Part shown: positions 24,785-44,479 of the stretch, one piece after another
How the letters are laid out: each line of letters begins with the position of its first letter
Numbering within the stretch: position 1 is the stretch's first letter
Assembly (NCBI RefSeq): GCF_013782625.1
Contig: NZ_CP056199.1
Span: forward strand, 1,630,588 to 1,694,587
Direction of reading: 5' to 3'
Source: Enterobacter sp. RHBSTW-00994
GTDB lineage: Bacteria; Pseudomonadota; Gammaproteobacteria; Enterobacterales; Enterobacteriaceae
DNA: 64,000 bases
Made by a program: the position numbers and the translations under genes
The notes under the pieces: generated by a model
The model's input: only the letters and a program-made list of their open reading frames with translations
Databases searched by the model: none
Told to the model about the DNA's origin: nothing

Positions 24785-24804
24785 TACTGTATGAATATAC
24801 AGTA
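24785..24804 (-). promoter_or_regulatory. LexA box of sulA
   Basis: TACTGTATGAATATACAGTA fits the SOS box TACTG(TA)5CAGTA at all the conserved CTGT and ACAG positions and sits directly before sulA. Confidence 0.92.
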
Positions 24805-35527: not shown

Positions 35528-37156
35528 ATGAAACCACAAACACGCACTAACTTTACACTCTCTTTGTTAACCGCAGGCATCCTGTGCGCCAGCACAGCGA
35601 CGTGGGCGGCTAATGTGCCGGCAGGAACCCAACTGGCAGAGAAACAGGAACTGGTCAGGAATAATGGTAGCGAGCCCGCTTCACTCGACCCGCATAAAGT
35701 CGAAAGCGATGTCGAATTCAATATTATCAGCGATTTGTTCGAAGGGCTGGTGAGTGTATCCCCTACAGGTGAGATACAGCCTCGTCTGGCTGAAAAGTGG
35801 GAAAATAAAGACAATACGGTCTGGACATTCCACCTGCGTCCGGGCATTACCTGGAGTGACGGAACCGCCATTACCGCACAGGATGTGGTGTGGAGCTGGC
35901 AGCGTCTGGTTGACCCGAAAACCGCGTCTCCGTATGCCAGCTACCCGGGCAATATGCACATCACCAATGCGGCGGATATCGCACAAGGGAAAAAAGCCCC
36001 TGATTCGCTGGGCGTAAAAGCCATTGACGACACCACACTGGAAGTGACGCTCACCCAGCCAAATGCGGCATTCCTTGCGATGCTGGCGCACCCGTCACTG
36101 GTTCCCGTCGATAAAGTGTTGATTGGCCGCTATGGTGATAAATGGACCAAGCCGGAACACTTTGTGAGCAGCGGAGCTTACACATTATCGCAGTGGGTGG
36201 TCAACGAGCGGATAGTTGCCGAGCGTAACCCGCGCTACTGGGACAATGCGCACACCGTGATCAACAAAGTGACCTACCTGCCGATCACCTCTGAAGCATC
36301 CGATGTAAACCGTTATAAGGCCGGGGAAATTGACATCGTCTATACCGTGCCTATCAATCAGTTTGCGCAGTTGCAAAAAACCATGGGCAAAGAGCTGGAC
36401 GTTTCCCCGCAGCTTGCCACTTACTATTATGAATTCAACACCACGCGGCCTCCCTTCAACGACGTGCGTGTACGTAAAGCGCTGAACATGGCACTTGATA
36501 AAGACATCATTGCTGAAAAAGTGTTAGGGCAGGGGCAGCGTCCGGCGTGGCTTATCAGCCAGCCTGAGATTGGCGGCGTGACGCTGCACAATCCTGGTTA
36601 CGCCAGTTGGCCGATGGACAAACGCATTGCCGAAGCCAAAAAGCTGCTGAATGAAGCTGGTTTCAATGCGGGTCATCCTCTGAGCTTTAATCTGCTCTAC
36701 AACACCTCCGAATCGCATCAGCGTATTGCGATTGCCGCCAGCTCCATGTGGAAGAAAAATCTCGGCGTGGAGGCGAAGCTGCAAAACCAGGAGTGGAAAA
36801 CCATGCTGGATACGATGCATACCCATAACTTCGATGCAGTGCGTTACGCCTGGATTGCGGATTATGACGATGCGGCGACCTTCCTGAACAACTTCCGCAC
36901 CGGTGACAGCGAAAACACCAGCCAGTACAGCAACCCGGCCTATGATGAAGCGCTGGTTAACGCCGCAAAAGCGAAAACCACGCAAGAGCGCGGCGCGTTC
37001 TATCAGCAGGCGGAAGATCTACTGGGCCGTGATGTGCCGGCAATTCCGGTATATCACTATGTCCGCACGCATCTGGTGAAACCGTGGGTGGGGGGCTTTA
37101 CTCCGGATAAACTGGGGTATTACTACACCAAAGATATGTACATCAAAAAACACTAA
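35528..37156 (+). CDS. OppA/MppA-like peptide-binding protein (orphan)
   Basis: This is a 542-residue periplasmic binding protein of solute-binding family 5. The signal peptide begins MKPQTRTNFTLSLLTAGILC and ends near TWAA. The mature part has the hallmarks of oligopeptide receptors: EPASLDPHK, FEGLVSVSPTGEIQP, a central YYEFNTTRPPFNDVRVRKALN and the C-terminal YHYVRTHLVKPWVGGF. The ATG at 35528 follows AAGGCGAAGG. No permease or ATPase gene is adjacent, so it may deliver to the Opp permease encoded elsewhere, as MppA does. It is not in this position in E. coli K-12. The exact peptide ligand cannot be told. Confidence 0.88.
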   Translation: MKPQTRTNFTLSLLTAGILCASTATWAANVPAGTQLAEKQELVRNNGSEPASLDPHKVESDVEFNIISDLFEGLVSVSPTGEIQPRLAEKWENKDNTVWTFHLRPGITWSDGTAITAQDVVWSWQRLVDPKTASPYASYPGNMHITNAADIAQGKKAPDSLGVKAIDDTTLEVTLTQPNAAFLAMLAHPSLVPVDKVLIGRYGDKWTKPEHFVSSGAYTLSQWVVNERIVAERNPRYWDNAHTVINKVTYLPITSEASDVNRYKAGEIDIVYTVPINQFAQLQKTMGKELDVSPQLATYYYEFNTTRPPFNDVRVRKALNMALDKDIIAEKVLGQGQRPAWLISQPEIGGVTLHNPGYASWPMDKRIAEAKKLLNEAGFNAGHPLSFNLLYNTSESHQRIAIAASSMWKKNLGVEAKLQNQEWKTMLDTMHTHNFDAVRYAWIADYDDAATFLNNFRTGDSENTSQYSNPAYDEALVNAAKAKTTQERGAFYQQAEDLLGRDVPAIPVYHYVRTHLVKPWVGGFTPDKLGYYYTKDMYIKKH

Positions 37157-37260
37157 GGCTCAGTGGTACGATTTTATGCTGATAAAATGGCCAATGCGTT
37201 GTCTATTCAACCGATTAAACGCGCTTTGGCTATTTTTCAGGCGAACGATTGTGTTCATGC

Positions 37261-37289
37261 TTTACAGGACGCAATGAGGTGTTTATAGT
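37261..37289 (+). promoter_or_regulatory. Promoter of first tRNA-Ser
   Basis: TTTACA (37261-37266) and TATAGT (37284-37289) are separated by 17 bases and followed by a GC-rich discriminator (GCGCCTC), the pattern of stringently controlled stable-RNA promoters. Confidence 0.75.
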
Positions 37290-37301
37290 GCGCCTCACTT
37301 A

Positions 37302-37389
37302 GGAAGCGTGGCCGAGCGGTTGAAGGCACCGGTCTTGAAAACCGGCGACCCGAAAGGGTTCTAGAGTTCGAATCTCTACGCTTCCGCCA
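37302..37389 (+). tRNA. serT: tRNA-Ser (anticodon UGA), first copy
   Basis: This 88-base gene has a perfect acceptor stem (GGAAGCG/CGCTTCC), anticodon stem-loop with CTTGAAA (anticodon TGA), the long variable arm of serine tRNAs (CCCGAAAGGG), a T arm with TTCGAAT and an encoded CCA. It occupies the position of E. coli serT after yccA. Confidence 0.98.
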
Positions 37390-37395
37390 AATTCG

Positions 37396-37429
37396 AAAAC
37401 CCTGCGATAGCGATATCGCAGGGTTTTTT
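37396..37429 (+). terminator. Terminator of first tRNA-Ser
   Basis: AAAACCCTGCGATA pairs perfectly with TATCGCAGGGTTTT around GCGA, followed by T residues. Confidence 0.92.
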
Positions 37430-37480
37430 GCTTTTCTGCGGTGCGAAAACGCAGGAGATGAAAATTAGAAAAATTCCTGC

Positions 37481-37509
37481 TTTACAAGGCGCTAATAGAT
37501 GTTTATAGT
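37481..37509 (+). promoter_or_regulatory. Promoter of second tRNA-Ser
   Basis: TTTACA (37481-37486) and TATAGT (37504-37509) with a 17-base spacer and the same discriminator as the first copy. The spacer differs at several positions from copy one. Confidence 0.75.
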
Positions 37510-37521
37510 GCGCCTCACTTT

Positions 37522-37609
37522 GGAAGCGTGGCCGAGCGGTTGAAGGCACCGGTCTTGAAAACCGGCGACCCGAAAGGGTTCTAGAGTTCGAATCTCTACG
37601 CTTCCGCCA
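37522..37609 (+). tRNA. serT: tRNA-Ser (anticodon UGA), second copy
   Basis: The 88 bases are identical to the copy 220 bases upstream, including the encoded CCA. It has its own promoter and terminator, so the tandem is a duplication of a whole transcription unit rather than a polycistronic tRNA operon. Confidence 0.98.
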
Positions 37610-37615
37610 AATTTG

Positions 37616-37650
37616 AAAACCCTGTGATAGCAATATCACAGGGTTTTTTC
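37616..37650. terminator. Terminator of second tRNA-Ser
   Basis: AAAACCCTGTGATA pairs with TATCACAGGGTTTT around GCAA, followed by TTC. The stem can also work for the gene converging from the right, giving a T-run on the minus strand too. Confidence 0.9.
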
Positions 37651-37665
37651 ATTTCAGAATACGAT

Positions 37666-39099
37666 TTACGGAAACCGGTATCCCATCAAAGCGAAAAGCG
37701 TTTCGCCACCCTGAACACTGGCAGAGAGAAAGCCCTCATCAGTCAGTGCCAGCGGGCGTCGCGTTACCGAGTTTCCGACATTGCCGCCAATAATCTCGAT
37801 TTCATCAGCGCTCACGGAAACGACCAAATCCGTATGGCTGTTGTAATGACCCAGATGTTGATGATCGTAATCGACGACTTTATCGCTGTCCCTGTCCCAG
37901 CACACCAAATCCCCCACCTGGGGTTTGCGTTCGTTTAGCCTGAATCCCCAATACAGTGCGTTGGTATTCCCCTGGTTTCTGTCCCGGATAGATTTGCTGA
38001 TGTACGTCGCATGCGAGGCGGAATATGCGAAGCGGTTCTCCGCACCAGACTGGCGCATGATCCAGGAAATAAAGGCTGCCGACCAGGGCCATTCATGATC
38101 CCGGCCGTCCAGATCATCTCGTCCAATGTTCTCCCAGTACTGGCCGACCCGTTGCCACCAGCCATCTTCACCCTCTTTATGCCCAATCTGCAGGATAGAT
38201 CCTTTGCGGTTGTAACGTTGTCCACCAAAGAAGGTCCATTGCTCGATGGCACTGGACGCGACATTGGCTGCAAAGCCTGATGCAAGAGCAACCGCTGGGG
38301 AGCTGTTTGTGACGGGAGCGGCGCCGCCACTCCCCGCCGCGGGCGAGCCGATAAACGCGATGGTACTGGCGATAACCGGCTGGGTCGTATTACCCGTCGG
38401 GAGCGGTATGGTGGGCGACGGTTCGACAAGGACGCCATGCGCATTAATGGGGATCTGAGAGAGAGCCCAGTTCCCGCGCGCAATTTCGAATCGCAAGCAT
38501 TTGGTTCGGTAAACGGTAGGGTGGAGCTCAGGGTTGCTGTGTGTCGCTAGCCATGCGTCCCTGACATCAACATACTGGGTAATCCATTTACGTTCATTGC
38601 CGCCATTCGCTGGGGGAACTTCCGGAAAGCGGGAGCGCAGGAAGGGGAGAATACCATTGCTATGGATGAAGGAGTCGTAGATGACGAGCATGGAGAGCGC
38701 CTCCTGAAAACCGTACTTCTGCGCCCAGTTAAATGCGGGAGTGAAATATCGCGCATCAAAAAATGTATCCTGCACGGACTTCATGACGGGGTCTTTACTG
38801 CCAGCCTGCACCAGCAGAGAGATGAACTGGGCATGATCCACCAGGGGGGTTTGCCCAATCAGAGACACGAACGGGGCCAGTGCCGCGCTGAATAGCCCAT
38901 TCGCGTTGACATACTGGCTAATCAGTTCCTGAAGGTTTCCATATTCCGTTGTTTGCGAACGGCCATAGGTGATTTGTCGAATCCGGTGTGGGCCATCATG
39001 GAAGATGGCGATTGCCGCATAATCCCCTCCGGCAGAGCCTGTTTCGAACGCATTCAGAACGCGTTCACACAGGCTTTTTTGTACAGGCGTGAGTATCAT
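37666..39099 (-). CDS. GH46 chitosanase-like / DUF2272 double-domain protein
   Basis: The 477-residue product has two enzyme-like parts. Residues 1-200 resemble GH46 chitosanases of the lysozyme superfamily: an acidic residue in LNAFETGS, the ITYGRSQTTEYGNL segment, then the helical VYFDP-type and DVRDAW regions. A low-complexity Pro/Ala/Ser/Gly linker follows (about 220-290). The C-terminal 170 residues look like DUF2272 (PWSAAFISWIMR, HATYI, GDLVCWDRD, HTDLVV, GGNVGNSV), an NlpC/P60- or CHAP-like fold with a possible Cys/His pair. There is no signal peptide. I start at the ATG at 39099 because GGGGG precedes it; a start seven codons upstream lacks a ribosome site. Peptidoglycan or another amino-sugar polymer is the likely substrate, inferred only. 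The domain calls are from memory of the families. Confidence 0.75.
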   Translation of the reverse strand: MILTPVQKSLCERVLNAFETGSAGGDYAAIAIFHDGPHRIRQITYGRSQTTEYGNLQELISQYVNANGLFSAALAPFVSLIGQTPLVDHAQFISLLVQAGSKDPVMKSVQDTFFDARYFTPAFNWAQKYGFQEALSMLVIYDSFIHSNGILPFLRSRFPEVPPANGGNERKWITQYVDVRDAWLATHSNPELHPTVYRTKCLRFEIARGNWALSQIPINAHGVLVEPSPTIPLPTGNTTQPVIASTIAFIGSPAAGSGGAAPVTNSSPAVALASGFAANVASSAIEQWTFFGGQRYNRKGSILQIGHKEGEDGWWQRVGQYWENIGRDDLDGRDHEWPWSAAFISWIMRQSGAENRFAYSASHATYISKSIRDRNQGNTNALYWGFRLNERKPQVGDLVCWDRDSDKVVDYDHQHLGHYNSHTDLVVSVSADEIEIIGGNVGNSVTRRPLALTDEGFLSASVQGGETLFALMGYRFP

Positions 39100-39198
39100 A
39101 AAACCCCCTTTTCTGAGCATGAGTCGATAAGGCTATCTGCTGAGTTCGTGCCTGACGGCGCTCGCGGAAAAGAGTAAAAGCCCGATATACATCCGGCC

Positions 39199-40122
39199 TT
39201 ATGTGTTCTTTTTCCTGGATTTGCCGGGTTCAGGCGGTTTTGGCCCGGTGGAGCGTATCTGCATAACGCGCTGAAGAATGTCGAACCAGAACGGGCCGCC
39301 CAGCGAGACGGCGAAGATGGTGATAAGCAAACCAATGGCTTTTGTCAGGTATCCCCATCCGATGGGAAGGGTCTTCCATCCGAGCGAGAAACCAACAGAC
39401 TGCACAGCCGACATGGCCTGGTTGTAGTCAGTTCTGGCTTTTTCGGCCGGATCGACGGGCGGTGAGCCAGGGTCATTACTGACGCGATGGGGACTCTCTC
39501 GCGTGTATTGTTCCGTTATTACCAGCATCTGCTCCCGTGCTACCGGATTGGCTGCCAGCAATGTCGCCAGGTTGATTGTGTCAACGTTTGCACTGCTGAC
39601 CAGGAAGGCGGCAACAATCAGCGTTATGGTCTGCGTTCGGCGCTTGTACCAGCCGGAAGCACGATCCATTGCAGCATCGAATTGTGCTTCAACCGCTTTA
39701 CGAAATTTGTCGGTGTCGTTACCTGTCTGCATCACCAGCGTGTCAAGAACACCTTTTATGCGATTATCCTCGACGGAGCCCGGCAGGGCGTTTACCCCAG
39801 CGGAGAGTGTCGACATCGCACTCCGCCCAATGACGAGCGCCTGCACGACCTGTCCGACAATTGCCGACGGAATGTAAGAGGGGCGTCCTGCGTTCCCTTT
39901 GCTAAGCGACTGGATCAATGGATGGTCAAAAAATTGCGTGACAAATTGCGTATTTGGGGCCAGTTCTCCTGAAAATAACTCGTTAAGCGCAGCTTCCAGA
40001 TTTTTGCTACGAAAACCCGTTCCGGCAGAAATGGCCTCCACGATGGACGTGCAGGCTATTCCAAACATGAAATAGACGGTCATAAGCCCAATCAGTACAT
40101 CAAGCATCTCCAGTCCAAACAT
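39199..40122 (-). CDS. Uncharacterised membrane protein of the islet
   Basis: I do not recognise a named family for this 307-residue protein. It has an N-terminal hydrophobic helix (residues 8-28, LIGLMTVYFMFGIACTSIVE), a soluble helical part with SKGNAGRPSYIPSAIVGQVVQALV, a second hydrophobic segment near 163-185 (TLIVAAFLVSSANVDTINL) and a third near 265-285 (IGLLITIFAVSLGGPFWFDIL). A basic Pro/Lys tail follows. The ATG at 40122 follows AAGGGG. It lies 99 bases upstream of the GH46-like/DUF2272 gene on the same strand, so the two are probably co-transcribed. An accessory, release or immunity role is conceivable but unproven. Confidence 0.7.
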   Translation of the reverse strand: MFGLEMLDVLIGLMTVYFMFGIACTSIVEAISAGTGFRSKNLEAALNELFSGELAPNTQFVTQFFDHPLIQSLSKGNAGRPSYIPSAIVGQVVQALVIGRSAMSTLSAGVNALPGSVEDNRIKGVLDTLVMQTGNDTDKFRKAVEAQFDAAMDRASGWYKRRTQTITLIVAAFLVSSANVDTINLATLLAANPVAREQMLVITEQYTRESPHRVSNDPGSPPVDPAEKARTDYNQAMSAVQSVGFSLGWKTLPIGWGYLTKAIGLLITIFAVSLGGPFWFDILQRVMQIRSTGPKPPEPGKSRKKNT

Positions 40123-40373
40123 GTTGTTCCCCTTATTGTCCGCGAAACACGGCTGGTTGCTCCCGGAAACATTGCAGGTTGTAGACTGAGAATATGCACT
40201 GAGGGTGAGAGATGAGCGTTAAGAGGTTCGTCGTAATTTGAGGCGGGCAGTCAATCGTTAGTCGCAGTTTTTGGCCATAAAATGAGGCATACACTTTTAT
40301 CTGAGCAGCCCAGCGCCGGTGTGTTTTTCATAGACGCGTAAATGAATGAGCCCATTCGCCTCAGGAGACGATC

Positions 40374-41027
40374 ATGTTTTATTTCCGGATTAATAAACTG
40401 CGCATATTTGATAACCATGAGAATGCGTTTCTCTTTTTCAAACGTGACCTTGCGCAAGTTAAGCTGATCAGTTTTGTCACGGCCGATGACCAAATACCGA
40501 TACTGGATGCGTGGATCGCCGAAATCGATACAGCCAGGAAGGCACAGCTTCTTGAACAGGCTGTTCGACAGATTGCGTCGACGCGGGTGCTGACTGAAAT
40601 TGCCAACGTTAAAGACAATGCGGTTCTGACGTTTGGGGATACCGGATATGTGCTCTATCAGTCTGTGGCGATCCCGGAGGATTTTAACTGGTGTCTTATT
40701 GCAACGGAGGGAGACGACAACGTACGAGCTATCGGTGAGCAACTCGATAGCATTGTGAACCATCCTGAGTTTGACCGTTTTGCCGCAAACATGGGCACGT
40801 TGATTCTGGGGGCGGCAAATCCCGCGTATGCCGCAGGTGTGATAGTCACAAAGTTTTTGACGACGGTGGCGGCCGATGCGCTCAAGAAAAATGGTGATGA
40901 CCAGTTGGGCATTCTGTATATGTCACTCAACAGAAAAGAGCACTATCTCTACGGCGAGCGGAAAAGAGACGGGATCCCCGATCTGACCGGGAACTTACGC
41001 GTGGATTATTCCATTTTTGCGTTCTGA
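40374..41027 (+). CDS. Uncharacterised 217-residue protein of the islet
   Basis: No named family recognised. The N-terminus (MFYFRINKLRIFDNHE) looks like beta strands. A helical middle follows (about 50-80), then an acidic segment, a strongly hydrophobic Ala-rich stretch at about 141-172 (LILGAANPAYAAGVIVTKFL) and a tail rich in charged and aromatic residues (HYLYGERKRDGIPDLTGNLR, then VDYSIFAF) that looks like a conserved signature. No signal peptide. The ATG follows AGGAGA at good spacing. It is divergent from the membrane protein gene across a 251-base gap that presumably holds both promoters. Confidence 0.7.
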   Translation: MFYFRINKLRIFDNHENAFLFFKRDLAQVKLISFVTADDQIPILDAWIAEIDTARKAQLLEQAVRQIASTRVLTEIANVKDNAVLTFGDTGYVLYQSVAIPEDFNWCLIATEGDDNVRAIGEQLDSIVNHPEFDRFAANMGTLILGAANPAYAAGVIVTKFLTTVAADALKKNGDDQLGILYMSLNRKEHYLYGERKRDGIPDLTGNLRVDYSIFAF

Positions 41028-41040
41028 CAACCCACAGACA

Positions 41041-41072
41041 AACCACAAGGCATGACACACCACCTTGTGGTT
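41041..41072. terminator. Inverted repeat between islet and hpxE
   Basis: AACCACAAGG pairs perfectly with CCTTGTGGTT over a 12-base loop, between two converging genes. Neither side has a strong T-run, so it is a hairpin that probably ends transcription but may not be a classical terminator. Confidence 0.55.
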
Positions 41073-41081
41073 CAACCATCC

Positions 41082-42047
41082 CTATAGCCCAATCACCAGT
41101 TCCCCTGAGTGACTCCGGGAGCAGCACAGCGCTACCTGCTGATCCGCAGCGGCTTTCTCCGCCGCCGACTGAACCGTATCCCGGTGATCCACCACGCCAT
41201 CAATCACGGGCGTCAGGCACGCGCCGCAAATCCCCATTTCACAGGAGAGCGGAACCGCAACGCCGTTAGCCAGCAGCACCTGGGCTATGGTCTTATCCGC
41301 AGGTACAGGCCAGCTTTCACCGGTAGAGGAGAGGGTGACGGTAAAAACGTCGCCGTTATCGCTGCCAGAACAGGACGACACCGGCTGGAAAGCCTCGCTG
41401 TGGATCTGCGTCTCGGACCAGCCCAGGGACACGCCAGCATCGCGTACCTGAGCCATAAAACCTTCCGGGCCGCAGACGTAGGCATGTAAACCCCCATCAG
41501 GCGGAGGCAGAACCTCCATCAGTGTGGTGCGTGGGCTCTGCCCGTCACGGGAGCTATGGAGCACGTAAGTACCATACCTGAACGGGCGTGACAGGGCCTG
41601 AAGGAAGGCAGCACTGCCTGGGTGTTTGACATAGTAATGCAGCGTAAACGGCGTTTCTGAGGCCTCCAGATGCAAGGCCATCGCGTACAGCGGCGTAATG
41701 CCAATACCCGCAGCCAGCAGCAGAACGTGCTGTGCCTCCTGTAGCGGGAACAGATTGCGCGGTGAGGAGATAAGCAACGTCTGACCGGGGCGTAGCATCT
41801 CATGAATATAGCGTGATCCGCCGCGAGACTGCGCTTCCCGCGCCACGCAGATAAGATAGCGCTTTTCCTCACGCTGCCCGGTCAGCGAATACTGACGGAC
41901 AATCCCGCAAGGCAGATGGACGTCGATATGTGCCCCAGGTTGCCAGTCAGGAAGTGTCTCCCCGTTGGCTGAAACCAGCCTGACCGCCAGGCTCTTATCG
42001 CCCTGACGCCATAATCCCTCAACCATAACGCTCAGCATCTCACTCAT
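41082..42047 (-). CDS. hpxE: (Hypo)xanthine oxygenase reductase component HpxE
   Basis: HpxE passes electrons from NAD(P)H to the Rieske oxygenase HpxD, which together replace xanthine dehydrogenase in Klebsiella. The 321-residue protein has the phthalate-dioxygenase-reductase order: a flavin-binding barrel (QYSLTGQ motif), a pyridine nucleotide domain (LLLAAGIGITPLYAM) and a C-terminal plant-type 2Fe-2S domain (CEMGICGACLTP). Start at 42047, with GGAGG six bases before; the longer frame overlaps hpxD. It is the last gene of hpxO-hpxD-hpxE. Confidence 0.9.
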   Translation of the reverse strand: MSEMLSVMVEGLWRQGDKSLAVRLVSANGETLPDWQPGAHIDVHLPCGIVRQYSLTGQREEKRYLICVAREAQSRGGSRYIHEMLRPGQTLLISSPRNLFPLQEAQHVLLLAAGIGITPLYAMALHLEASETPFTLHYYVKHPGSAAFLQALSRPFRYGTYVLHSSRDGQSPRTTLMEVLPPPDGGLHAYVCGPEGFMAQVRDAGVSLGWSETQIHSEAFQPVSSCSGSDNGDVFTVTLSSTGESWPVPADKTIAQVLLANGVAVPLSCEMGICGACLTPVIDGVVDHRDTVQSAAEKAAADQQVALCCSRSHSGELVIGL

Positions 42048-42060
42048 GACGCGCCTCCAG

Positions 42061-43098
42061 TCACACCAGGAAAAATTCGCCAAAACCCATTTTTTTCAGC
42101 CCACGGCGATAGGCAATAGAGCTTCTGTCCGCAGGAATATGGGCTTCCAGAGTGAGATCCAGCGGAAGTCTTTCCGGCCGCTGGGTCTCCACCATCAGGC
42201 GATCTTCTTCAAACACCCGTAAATTGAAGGCATGAACATCTTCAACCGGAATATGCAGGTCAAAATTCCGCGCGATAGGGGCAAACATACGCGTCACGCG
42301 GGAAGATACCGGTGAGGCGGCGTTCATGATCACCAGCCGTGATTCGCCCGGAAAGTGGATCGTAAGCGTGGCGGTAAATGGCAGGTGCATCTCAAAATGA
42401 CGCAACCACTGGAAGCCTTCCGGCGCACGCAAATCAGAGTTGGCCGGGTAATTGCTCACCGAACTCCAGTAATCCGCAATGAAGCCAAACCCGGTTTCCT
42501 GCGGCTGATACACCGGAACGACCTGGTTATCCGGGTCGGCAAAGGTATCCGTGTGGATCCACGCGAAGTGGGCGACATCGAGAAACCCTTCCACCTGGCG
42601 ACCGGCAAAGCCGTTAACCTCAAACGCCGGGCAGTTAATCTGCTGAAACCCTGCGTCGTCCCAGTGGGGCATCGTGGGGAGCGGCATCGGGTTTTCAGGC
42701 TCCCAGGCGAGACAGGTCCAGATCAGGCCATAGCGCTCTTCCACGGCAAAGCTGGTCAGATTCAGTTTTGCCGGCACGGGCTGGTCAGGGCTTGAGGGAA
42801 TTCGGTTACAACGTCCGTCCTCGCCAAAACGTAAACCGTGGTAAGGACAGATAATGCCCTCCTCGTCGTGAAATCCGAGCGTCAGCGGCACGCCGCGATG
42901 GGGGCAGACGTCGCGTGCAACCACCACCTGGTCTTTAATGCGATAGATCACCAGTTGTTCATCGAGCAAGGTGGCTTTAACCGGGGCCGGGCCAATGTCA
43001 CATGCCCGCGCGACCGGATGCCAGCATTTCGCCAGGCGCAGCCAGTCTTCTGGCTCAAAGGTGCAATGGGCGGGTGGGGTAGGGAGTTCTCTTCTCAT
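42061..43098 (-). CDS. hpxD: (Hypo)xanthine Rieske oxygenase component HpxD
   Basis: HpxD is the terminal oxygenase that hydroxylates hypoxanthine and xanthine to urate with HpxE. The 345-residue protein has a Rieske centre with Cys65, His67, Cys84 and His87 (CPHRG and CPYHG). The mononuclear iron site has Asp174, His177 and His182 in DVAHFAWIH. Start MRRELPTP is preceded by GGAAGGA. In published Klebsiella clusters hpxDE have their own promoter and the activator gene hpxR beside them; here hpxD starts only 31 bases after hpxO. Confidence 0.92.
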   Translation of the reverse strand: MRRELPTPPAHCTFEPEDWLRLAKCWHPVARACDIGPAPVKATLLDEQLVIYRIKDQVVVARDVCPHRGVPLTLGFHDEEGIICPYHGLRFGEDGRCNRIPSSPDQPVPAKLNLTSFAVEERYGLIWTCLAWEPENPMPLPTMPHWDDAGFQQINCPAFEVNGFAGRQVEGFLDVAHFAWIHTDTFADPDNQVVPVYQPQETGFGFIADYWSSVSNYPANSDLRAPEGFQWLRHFEMHLPFTATLTIHFPGESRLVIMNAASPVSSRVTRMFAPIARNFDLHIPVEDVHAFNLRVFEEDRLMVETQRPERLPLDLTLEAHIPADRSSIAYRRGLKKMGFGEFFLV

Positions 43099-43129
43099 GG
43101 TTATCCTTCCTGCCGGTAAGGCAACAGTG

Positions 43130-44284
43130 TCAGCCTAAAGGTCCGCCCTGAATGGTGTCGCACAGGCCATTAATAATGCGCTCGCCGGTTTCTGCTTCGA
43201 GCTCTTTGTACCACGCCTGAGTCAGCGCCATATCTTTGCCGTGAGTGATGTCACAGCGTTTGCGTGCCTTGAGTACCAGGTCGCGGACGCGGTCACAGCG
43301 CAGGGCCTCATACTGACGTAGCGCCAGCTCAATGTTGTGGTTTTCGCGCAGACAATCTCCCAGCACCACGGCGTCTTCCATTGCGGCGCAACCGCCCTGG
43401 CCGATATCCGGCGTGGTGCTGTGTCCTGCATCGCCCAGCAGGGCGACGTTGCCGCGCACCAGGCTGTCGAACGGATCGATATCATGGATCTCAATCCGGT
43501 TGGTGGTTGTGGGATCAAGCGCCGCGATAAGTTTCTGTACCGGCTCGGCCCAGCCGCTGAAATAGCGGGTGAGATCGGCCCGCAGGGTGCTGCGATCTTC
43601 AGCAAGCCCCGCTGGTAGCGGTACGTCAAAGAAGAAATAGAAACGCCCCCCGGAGACGGGCATCAGCGATACGCGTTTGCCTTCGCCGACAAACGTCGTC
43701 CACTGATGTGCAGGGGCGATGGTTTCGTCAATCTCCACCAGACCATTCCAGTTAACGTAACCGGCATAGCGACGCTCCGGGGTATAGCCCAGAACATATG
43801 GACGCAACACTGAATGACTGCCGTCGGCAGCAATCAGAAAATCGCCCTGCGCCGTTGTACCGTCCATAAAGTGGACGGTGACGCCCTCGGCCGTCTCATT
43901 GACCTGCGTGACGCGTTTGCCGAACTGCACCGCGTCGCGTCCCCAGAAATCGAGCATTTCCCGTTGCAGCTCGGTGCGCGATACAGGGCAGGGTCTGCCG
44001 CCTGTACGCGCCACCAGCGGCGCGAGGCTAAACTGGGTGAGAATATCGCCGCGTTGATAGTCGCAATAGGCCATCTCATGCATCGGGCCGCCATAGGTTT
44101 CCATCATCTCGCCCATGCCAAGATGGTTCATGCACTTCACGCCGTTAGGCCAGACGGAGATGGCCGCGCCTACGGGCTTGATCTCTTTCACAGCTTCAAA
44201 CACGGTACACACAATGCCGGCATTTTTGAGTGCCACGGCTGCGCTTAATCCGCCAATCCCCGCACCAATCACGATGGCTTTCAT
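43130..44284 (-). CDS. hpxO: FAD-dependent urate hydroxylase HpxO
   Basis: HpxO uses NADH, FAD and O2 to hydroxylate urate to 5-hydroxyisourate, replacing classical uricase. The 384-residue protein has the K. pneumoniae length. It shows the FAD loop GAGIGGLSAA, the DG motif (ADGSHS), GDAGHSTTPDIGQGG, and the substrate-site residues Arg204 and Tyr216. Start at 44284 after AGGAGAG; a longer open frame covers the promoter region. A sigma-54 promoter precedes it. The product feeds HpxT and HpxQ, encoded divergently. Confidence 0.96.
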   Translation of the reverse strand: MKAIVIGAGIGGLSAAVALKNAGIVCTVFEAVKEIKPVGAAISVWPNGVKCMNHLGMGEMMETYGGPMHEMAYCDYQRGDILTQFSLAPLVARTGGRPCPVSRTELQREMLDFWGRDAVQFGKRVTQVNETAEGVTVHFMDGTTAQGDFLIAADGSHSVLRPYVLGYTPERRYAGYVNWNGLVEIDETIAPAHQWTTFVGEGKRVSLMPVSGGRFYFFFDVPLPAGLAEDRSTLRADLTRYFSGWAEPVQKLIAALDPTTTNRIEIHDIDPFDSLVRGNVALLGDAGHSTTPDIGQGGCAAMEDAVVLGDCLRENHNIELALRQYEALRCDRVRDLVLKARKRCDITHGKDMALTQAWYKELEAETGERIINGLCDTIQGGPLG

Positions 44285-44319
44285 GCTTCTCTCCTTTTGC
44301 AGGTGGTGTAACGGGAAAG

Positions 44320-44335
44320 AGCAATTTGCGTACCA
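44320..44335 (-). promoter_or_regulatory. Sigma-54 promoter of hpxO(DE)
   Basis: The minus strand reads TGGTACGCAAATTGCT: GG-N10-GC with one mismatch to TGGCAC-N5-TTGCW. The transcript would start near 44309, 25 bases before hpxO. Prediction from sequence only. Confidence 0.65.
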
Positions 44336-44377
44336 GAGTGGCAAAGTAAGAGTTAACGGCATCATTCCCGCGTGATG

Positions 44378-44394
44378 TGCACTGACGTGGTGCG
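44378..44394. promoter_or_regulatory. NtrC-type enhancer between hpxO and hpxQ
   Basis: TGCACTGACGTGGTGCG keeps the TGCAC-N6-GGTGC core and spacing of the NtrC site. It lies about 75 bases from the predicted hpxO start and 120 from the predicted hpxQ start, so it could serve both. Confidence 0.65.
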
Positions 44395-44479
44395 TGTTGA
44401 CCCTGATGTTGCCATTTTGTGAATCAATAATTTCCAAACCAGGGGCCGGGAATCGACTGTTTCACAGAGTGCGAAAGAG

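Follow-up and report, generated by a model that had tools for sequence, protein, structure and literature searches.

A three-gene islet beside tandem tRNA-Ser genes of Enterobacter sp. RHBSTW-00994: a possible lysis or release cassette with a holin-like membrane partner

Background

Holin-like release is described as one of the few routes open to folded proteins without a leader peptide (PMC9527704; here and below, statements on cited papers refer to the parts of those papers that were available). We analysed a stretch of 64,000 nucleotides of Enterobacter sp. RHBSTW-00994 (contig NZ_CP056199.1, positions 1,630,588 to 1,694,587, hereafter the window), in which three genes of unassigned function form an islet beside tandem tRNA-Ser genes: P0001, encoding a predicted wall hydrolase with a GH46-type and a DUF2272 domain, P0002, encoding a membrane protein (MP), and the divergent gene P0003. 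We tentatively read the islet, at what we judge to be slightly below an even chance, as a small lysis or release cassette of bacterial genes, with MP as the holin-like partner.

Several described systems resemble the islet in part. As in the holin-endolysin-spanin cassette of phages, a leaderless wall hydrolase adjoins a membrane protein, and a related locus in Gallionella (L023) adds two spanin-like genes; unlike the phage components, MP is large (307 aa), lacks a PHROG match and is absent from 50,697 phage records, although one relative nonetheless lies on a viral contig. In the type 10 secretion systems of Salmonella, Serratia (ChiWXYZ) and Yersinia entomophaga a bacterial wall hydrolase and a membrane protein likewise open the envelope, but these are said to descend from lytic cassettes of phages (PMC13284979), whereas the islet proteins have no PHROG holin match at E 1. 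P0001 itself recalls GH46 'cluster E', characterised in a 2015 review as multimodular, often annotated as peptidoglycan-binding and without reported activity, with the catalytic residues mostly present and the glucosamine (GlcN)-binding Asp not conserved (PMC4663542); this likeness is one of description, and neither a DUF2272 fusion nor a pairing with MP is mentioned in the available part of that review. The DUF2272 domain of P0001 shares with its papain-like family the serine at the nucleophile position (PMC10318531), but differs in being fused to a GH46 domain. A literature search gave no paper combining chitosanase with DUF2272 or type VI secretion with GH46 in the library searched, and no title naming a GH46-DUF2272/MP pair was among the matches listed. 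We file the islet as a variant lysis/release cassette, and place it in neither the holins nor the type 10 secretion systems.

The main features, with positions in the window, are as follows.

37655..41082, no strand: islet, between the tRNA-Ser terminator and a convergent reductase gene (blastn against L149, the empty site of genome G021)
37666..39120, minus strand: P0001, 484 aa, predicted to be a leaderless peptidoglycan hydrolase of two domains, with M8 (39099) as the probable start
38458..39093, minus strand: GH46-type domain of P0001, about residues 10-221 (Pfam and alignment of catalytic residues)
37723..38112, minus strand: DUF2272 domain of P0001, residues 337-466, papain-like (Pfam)
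39199..40122, minus strand: MP (P0002), three-helix membrane protein, 307 aa, proposed holin-like partner
40374..41027, plus strand: P0003, 217 aa, with relatives solely in the Enterobacteriaceae in the sets searched

Results and discussion

The islet is a single insertion

The three genes lie on one insertion of 3428 bp. In the sibling genome G021, from the same genus, the match to window positions 36902-37654 joins the match to 41083-42300 without a gap (blastn), which leaves a clean empty site, and the islet boundaries were set at 37655 and 41082 because both flanking stretches are joined directly there. Among 61 genomes of the genus, only that of the window contains MP. Since there is an empty site in G021, and since related gene sets are found at other sites, the islet is not just a fortuitous series of open reading frames (ORFs). 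The three ORFs named in a preliminary description of this DNA were all recovered at the coordinates given there, including the divergent 217-residue protein (P0003), which indeed lies on the strand opposite to MP.

P0001 combines two putative wall-cutting domains

The same description had taken P0001 for a GH46-like plus DUF2272 double enzyme without signal peptide, and this proved correct: Pfam matches GH46 (8.1e-10, 39.1 bits, curated cut-off 27) and DUF2272 (9.7e-32, 110.8 bits, cut-off 27), solved chitosanases match the protein at 5.7e-11, and the two domains are joined by an Ala/Pro/Gly-rich linker. By inspection the N-terminus (MILTPVQKS) has no hydrophobic leader, the sole segment with a hydropathy above 1.4 being residues 76-94. 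As the better Shine-Dalgarno sequence precedes M8, translation probably starts at 39099. Residues E26 and D42 align with the GH46 catalytic acids; in the 11 aligned GH46 sequences the catalytic Glu is present in 10 (P0001 included) and the catalytic Asp in seven, with a gap in the other four. N62 takes the place of the GlcN-binding Asp of chitosanases at the -2 subsite, a residue absent from all 11 sequences, which have N, K or S instead. This Asp binds GlcN and gives chitosanases their preference for it, and the great majority of chitosanases (GH46 clusters A-D) carry a signal peptide (PMC4663542); P0001 has neither of these chitosanase traits, the signal peptide being judged by inspection. 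In the second domain, Ser347 (PWSAAF) is found at the presumed nucleophile position, in keeping with the description of DUF2272 as papain-like with serine for cysteine at this position and a speculative activity (PMC10318531).

Both heads of P0001 appear to point to peptidoglycan as substrate, and we presume that the enzymes are active. The use of chitosan or chitin is suggested by the family names GH46 and GH19 (the latter from a related locus described below) and by the match to solved chitosanases, but is scarcely credible for a protein without signal peptide, with its GlcN-binding Asp replaced and with a papain-like second head (PMC10318531).

Two further loci touch on this enzyme. The same genome encodes a second DUF2272 protein (211 aa; G000:C1 about 601400-603200, at 601447; L111:7397-9207), which adjoins a membrane protein of 384 aa that Pfam assigns to no family. 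On a Rhizobium plasmid (L113:3899-7597) a GH46 relative lies between a caspase-domain gene, which comes first, and a murein L,D-transpeptidase-type gene.

MP is a membrane protein without a described family

MP was described beforehand as a three-helix membrane protein on the strand of P0001, and this agrees with hydrophobic segments at about residues 9-27, 165-183 and 262-280. Searches of Pfam and NCBIfam gave no match above the curated cut-offs, with weak sub-threshold matches only, and there was no match at E 1 in PADLOC or PHROGs. The AlphaFold2 model (78 rows) has a mean predicted local distance difference test (pLDDT) score of 93, and a Foldseek search of the PDB with this model gave no match at E 0.001, with a distant relation to holins still possible. 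Hydropathy and the positive C-terminus hint that MP might lie N-out and C-in, with the loop of residues 28-164 in the cytoplasm.

At the Enterobacteriaceae loci with MP the enzyme is exchanged

Of 246 genomes sampled from the Enterobacteriaceae, four contain MP, all four with a peptidoglycan hydrolase alongside, and two of the four have all three kinds of gene. A full-length GH46-DUF2272 protein is present in three of the 246, each time with MP alongside. The second three-gene locus, in G069, lies between tRNA-Leu and yecA; here P0003 shares its strand with a GH19 enzyme, and MP is encoded on the opposite strand. The GH19 enzyme, which by inspection also lacks a signal peptide, stands where the window islet has GH46-DUF2272. 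The two flanks adjoin in the best E. coli match (1143 bp vs 4000 in G069), and 80% of the G069 tRNA-Leu-yecA stretch was found in none of 5426 E. coli genomes. In Citrobacter R56 and G154 MP adjoins GH46-DUF2272 between a LysR-type gene and a gene which we take to be csiD-like, and there is no P0003 match in either; the MP and enzyme ORFs of R56 as called overlap by 4 nt, an overlap which vanishes if the enzyme starts at the conserved MILTPVQ methionine. Across these family loci MP stays the same and the enzyme changes.

These counts bear on the possibility that three unrelated genes were carried in together. It would account for the absence of MP from three of the five genomes with P0003, and for the MP and enzyme of Citrobacter R56 and G154 without P0003, but not for the same three kinds of gene occurring together at a second site in another arrangement (G069), nor for a wall hydrolase beside MP in four of four family genomes, and we regard it as very improbable. 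The test set by the preliminary description, whether the genes keep company elsewhere, was borne out for the MP/hydrolase pair within the family; beyond it a hydrolase neighbour is mostly absent, and most of the genomes with P0003 lack MP. That description's interpretation is thus partly supported.

They also bear on the role of an immunity protein for MP. Leaderless wall hydrolases of two domains are a common type of effector, and P0001 could be an antibacterial effector delivered by a secretion system, with MP protecting the producer. DUF2272 representatives are proposed as possible peptidoglycan amidases secreted into the periplasm of a competitor, with Tse1 named (PMC10318531). However, Pfam revealed no secretion-marker domain in the three islet proteins (secretion systems elsewhere in the genome were not searched for), or among the 25 families listed for the neighbours of MP. 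Immunity is normally enzyme-specific, whereas MP is one family with unrelated partner enzymes; because of this single family the immunity reading is weakened, and we hold the effector explanation to be improbable. Of the options in the preliminary description, the lysis/defence module with a membrane partner remains the best fit, and the toxin with a partner, read as immunity, fits less well.

A Gallionella locus with MP, wall hydrolases and spanin-like genes

The MP of L023, a contig of a Gallionella metagenome-assembled genome, belongs to the same starred clade of eight rows in the MP tree as that of the window. It is followed in one gene run by a C92 papain-like amidase, a GH19 protein which matches a phage endolysin family (PHROG, 2.5e-71), and two spanin-like genes. 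The product of the first (172 aa) begins with a hydrophobic helix, and the remainder is charged and resembles a coiled coil; its best PHROG match is a weak one to an Rz-like spanin (1.9e-4). The second, overlapping it, encodes a 110-aa lipoprotein-like protein matching an Rz-like spanin PHROG at 5.5e-6. No phage structural gene was seen by eye among the genes called in 21 kb. The gene order is that expected of a lysis cassette, with MP apparently in the place of the holin.

MP and wall hydrolases in other bacteria

At least 555 MP relatives were found in named genomes from many phyla, and the best 80 loci were used. An exemplar search identified a wall-acting gene adjoining MP in 11 of the 80 loci, or in 11 of 152 adjoining genes vs 1 of 455 genes at a distance of three or more genes. 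The wall-acting neighbours in these loci were Amidase_2, GH19, M15, CHAP, C92, GH46 and peptidoglycan-binding genes, together with an unclassified gene in L055, which neither Pfam nor PHROGs match and which was counted through its own exemplar only. Over all MP loci examined, Pfam or PHROG placed partners of MP in Amidase_2, GH19, M15, CHAP/Hydrolase_2, C92 and GH46 with PG_binding_1. When L055 and L085 (a near copy of L080) are removed, nine adjoining genes remain vs 1/455 distal ones (p about 2e-5). A Pfam scan of downstream neighbours (69/77, with 8 left out) showed Amidase_2 (2), M15 (2), GH19 (2) and GH46/DUF2272 (1) among the 25 families listed, and that of upstream neighbours (68/75, with 7 left out) showed PG_binding_1 (2) among the 25 listed; in the control of 140/303 distal genes there was no wall hydrolase among the 25 Pfam families listed, while one control distal gene (L060) is GH19-like by phmmer. 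The GH19 matches of L072 and L094 fall below the Pfam cut-off (23.4 vs 25.5), and L094 matches PHROG endolysins. Three plasmid loci (L002, L003 and L004) supplied further wall-acting neighbours, and by annotation the next gene was not wall-acting in three others (L005, L006 and L007). Patatin, subtilisin-type and metallophosphoesterase genes adjoin MP as well.

An MP tree was made by a quick method from 86 rows, comprising the window, L110, L019, five plasmid rows and 78 of the 80 named loci (leaving out L024 and L062). On this tree, the pairing with GH19 requires at least three changes, forced by starred branches, and the wall-hydrolase label requires 11. In a sample of 359 Pseudomonadota genomes MP was present in 12 (that of the window included), with neighbours judged by exemplars and by eye, and with one contig (L210) ending at MP; one of the 11 other genomes (G447) has an adjoining wall hydrolase, a GH46 protein which also carries a peptidoglycan-binding domain, and in one genome MP adjoins a patatin. 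The converse search with the P0001 enzyme found matches in 29 Pseudomonadota genomes besides that of the window, and MP stands alongside one of the eight loci inspected (six GH46, two DUF2272). The pairing of MP with hydrolases is repeated but not a rule of the family, and its excess over chance is known only roughly.

Two other explanations make use of this variety of partners. In a conflict or abortive-infection module, MP would sense envelope damage or phage entry and activate an exchangeable lethal hydrolase, which suits a single MP family with wall enzymes, patatin, subtilisin-type and metallophosphoesterase partners, the caspase-domain gene adjoining the Rhizobium GH46 relative, and the varied cargo at the serT site in sibling genomes; however, none of the three islet proteins has a PADLOC match at E 1, or a nucleotide-signal or known sensor domain in Pfam, and we think this explanation unlikely. 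Alternatively, MP could regulate wall growth or division, or act there as an anchor, and tether various hydrolases at the membrane without lysis. Its wide spread and the usual lack of a hydrolase gene next to it are what a general envelope protein would show, but P0001 and its GH19 counterpart lack a signal peptide by inspection and would therefore need a passage to get to the wall, while the spanin-like genes of L023 suit release; this makes an anchoring role distinctly unlikely.

How well a lysis or release cassette fits

In the cassette that we propose, P0001 would be a leaderless hydrolase with one head that cuts glycan (GH46, of the lysozyme superfamily) and another that cuts peptide (DUF2272). 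MP in the inner membrane would give this enzyme access to the wall in folded form, in the way that a holin serves an endolysin. The action of P0001 would then lyse the cell, or open it for release. MP would transport or license the enzyme, and some trigger would set the enzymes in action, while P0003 may serve as cargo or regulator. In favour of the proposal are the single insertion with its empty site, the exchanged enzyme at the G069 site, the MP/GH46-DUF2272 pairs of Citrobacter R56 and G154, the repeated and unrelated wall hydrolases beside MP, the gene run of L023, and the conserved catalytic Glu together with the missing GlcN-binding Asp in the GH46 sequences.

Several observations weigh against this proposal. 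No wall-acting gene adjoins MP in 69 of the 80 named loci, and the adjacency counts are biased because the exemplars were taken from neighbours of MP, with only three of the 11 adjoining hits (L042, L043 and L085) not exemplars themselves. Patatin and metallophosphoesterase genes are also neighbours of MP, the latter occurring among the control genes too. Ten of the 11 other Pseudomonadota genomes with MP lack an adjoining wall hydrolase, and since the search with the enzyme had brought up G447 beforehand, fresh genomes with a hydrolase number 0/10; from the enzyme side, MP is beside one of six GH46-type loci in other Pseudomonadota. Within the starred clade of the window's MP three of the eight rows (L022, L025 and L026) have no wall hydrolase beside MP, and a simple scan of the window islet for ORFs of 40-199 aa that have a lipobox, or a membrane helix near their start, revealed none that is spanin-like. 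MP matches no holin in sequence or fold (PHROGs, phage records, Foldseek), and is about three times what we take to be the typical size of a holin. A clear MP relative is present on a viral contig that also has phage-like genes, so that MP cannot be claimed never to occur in phages. Finally, P0003 is unexplained, and its occurrence without MP in three of its five genomes argues against a tight three-gene system.

The viral relative has 578 aa (L112:7194-8930, IMG/VR), and by eye its contig contains repressor-like and other phage-like genes.

A wider and more doubtful version of the cassette proposal would make MP the first of a novel kind of membrane translocator in bacteria, distinct from the holins described so far and spread over many phyla, which passes or licenses leaderless folded hydrolases through the inner membrane, with P0003 as its cargo or switch in Enterobacteriaceae; its clients would be amidases, GH19, GH46 and M15 enzymes, and perhaps patatins and subtilases. 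In that version, home-grown bacterial lysis or release cassettes would have been overlooked since an unannotated family fills the holin slot. A widespread membrane protein which repeatedly pairs with exchangeable wall hydrolases would offer a new handle on bacterial self-lysis or the release of cell contents, and would give proteins resembling GH46 'cluster E' a testable role.

P0003

There is no match to P0003 in Pfam, NCBIfam or PADLOC, and the best PHROG match has an E of 0.027. It was found in five of the 246 family genomes, one of these matches being weak; two of the five genomes contain MP and three do not. In G272 and G163 P0003 is the N-terminal part of a longer protein (760 or about 900 aa), which adjoins a small membrane protein in the absence of MP. 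The P0003 domain begins a long Ala/Pro/Gln-rich protein in L017 (6758-9715) and L018 (7026-10420), and the small membrane protein beside these long proteins weakly matches two PHROGs to which no function is assigned. Its position makes P0003 a candidate for cargo.

The insertion site and neighbouring genes

Further features of the site are listed here.

37254..37434, plus strand: repeat copy 1 (181 nt), with tRNA-Ser(TGA) at 37302-37389
37474..37654, plus strand: repeat copy 2 (181 nt), with tRNA-Ser(TGA) at 37522-37609; the islet starts at the next base
40123..40373, no strand: spacer between MP and P0003, which diverge from it; a consensus promoter-like site was not found here

The tRNA-Ser site, with its duplicated tRNA (37254-37654), looks like a cargo hotspot, because in eight of 20 sibling stretches, surveyed out of 60 other genomes of the genus, two tRNA-Ser copies enclose called genes; one stretch has 1.2 kb without called genes between the copies, three have tandem copies and eight have a single copy within the stretch. 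The statement that hya follows serT in E. coli agrees with the single E. coli record examined. An inverted repeat (AACCACAAGG/CCTTGTGGTT) at 41041-41072, at the right end of the islet and between convergent genes, is perhaps a terminator. The adjoining stretch (41082-44437) contains Rieske-type oxygenase and reductase genes and a gene for a flavin adenine dinucleotide (FAD) monooxygenase, which we take to resemble HpxO, and a monooxygenase similar to the latter is encoded near the weak P0003 relative in L020. Elsewhere in the window, a near-consensus LexA site with two mismatches (24785-24804) is present in the 5' part of a 192-aa minus-strand ORF, which presumably encodes a SulA-like protein.

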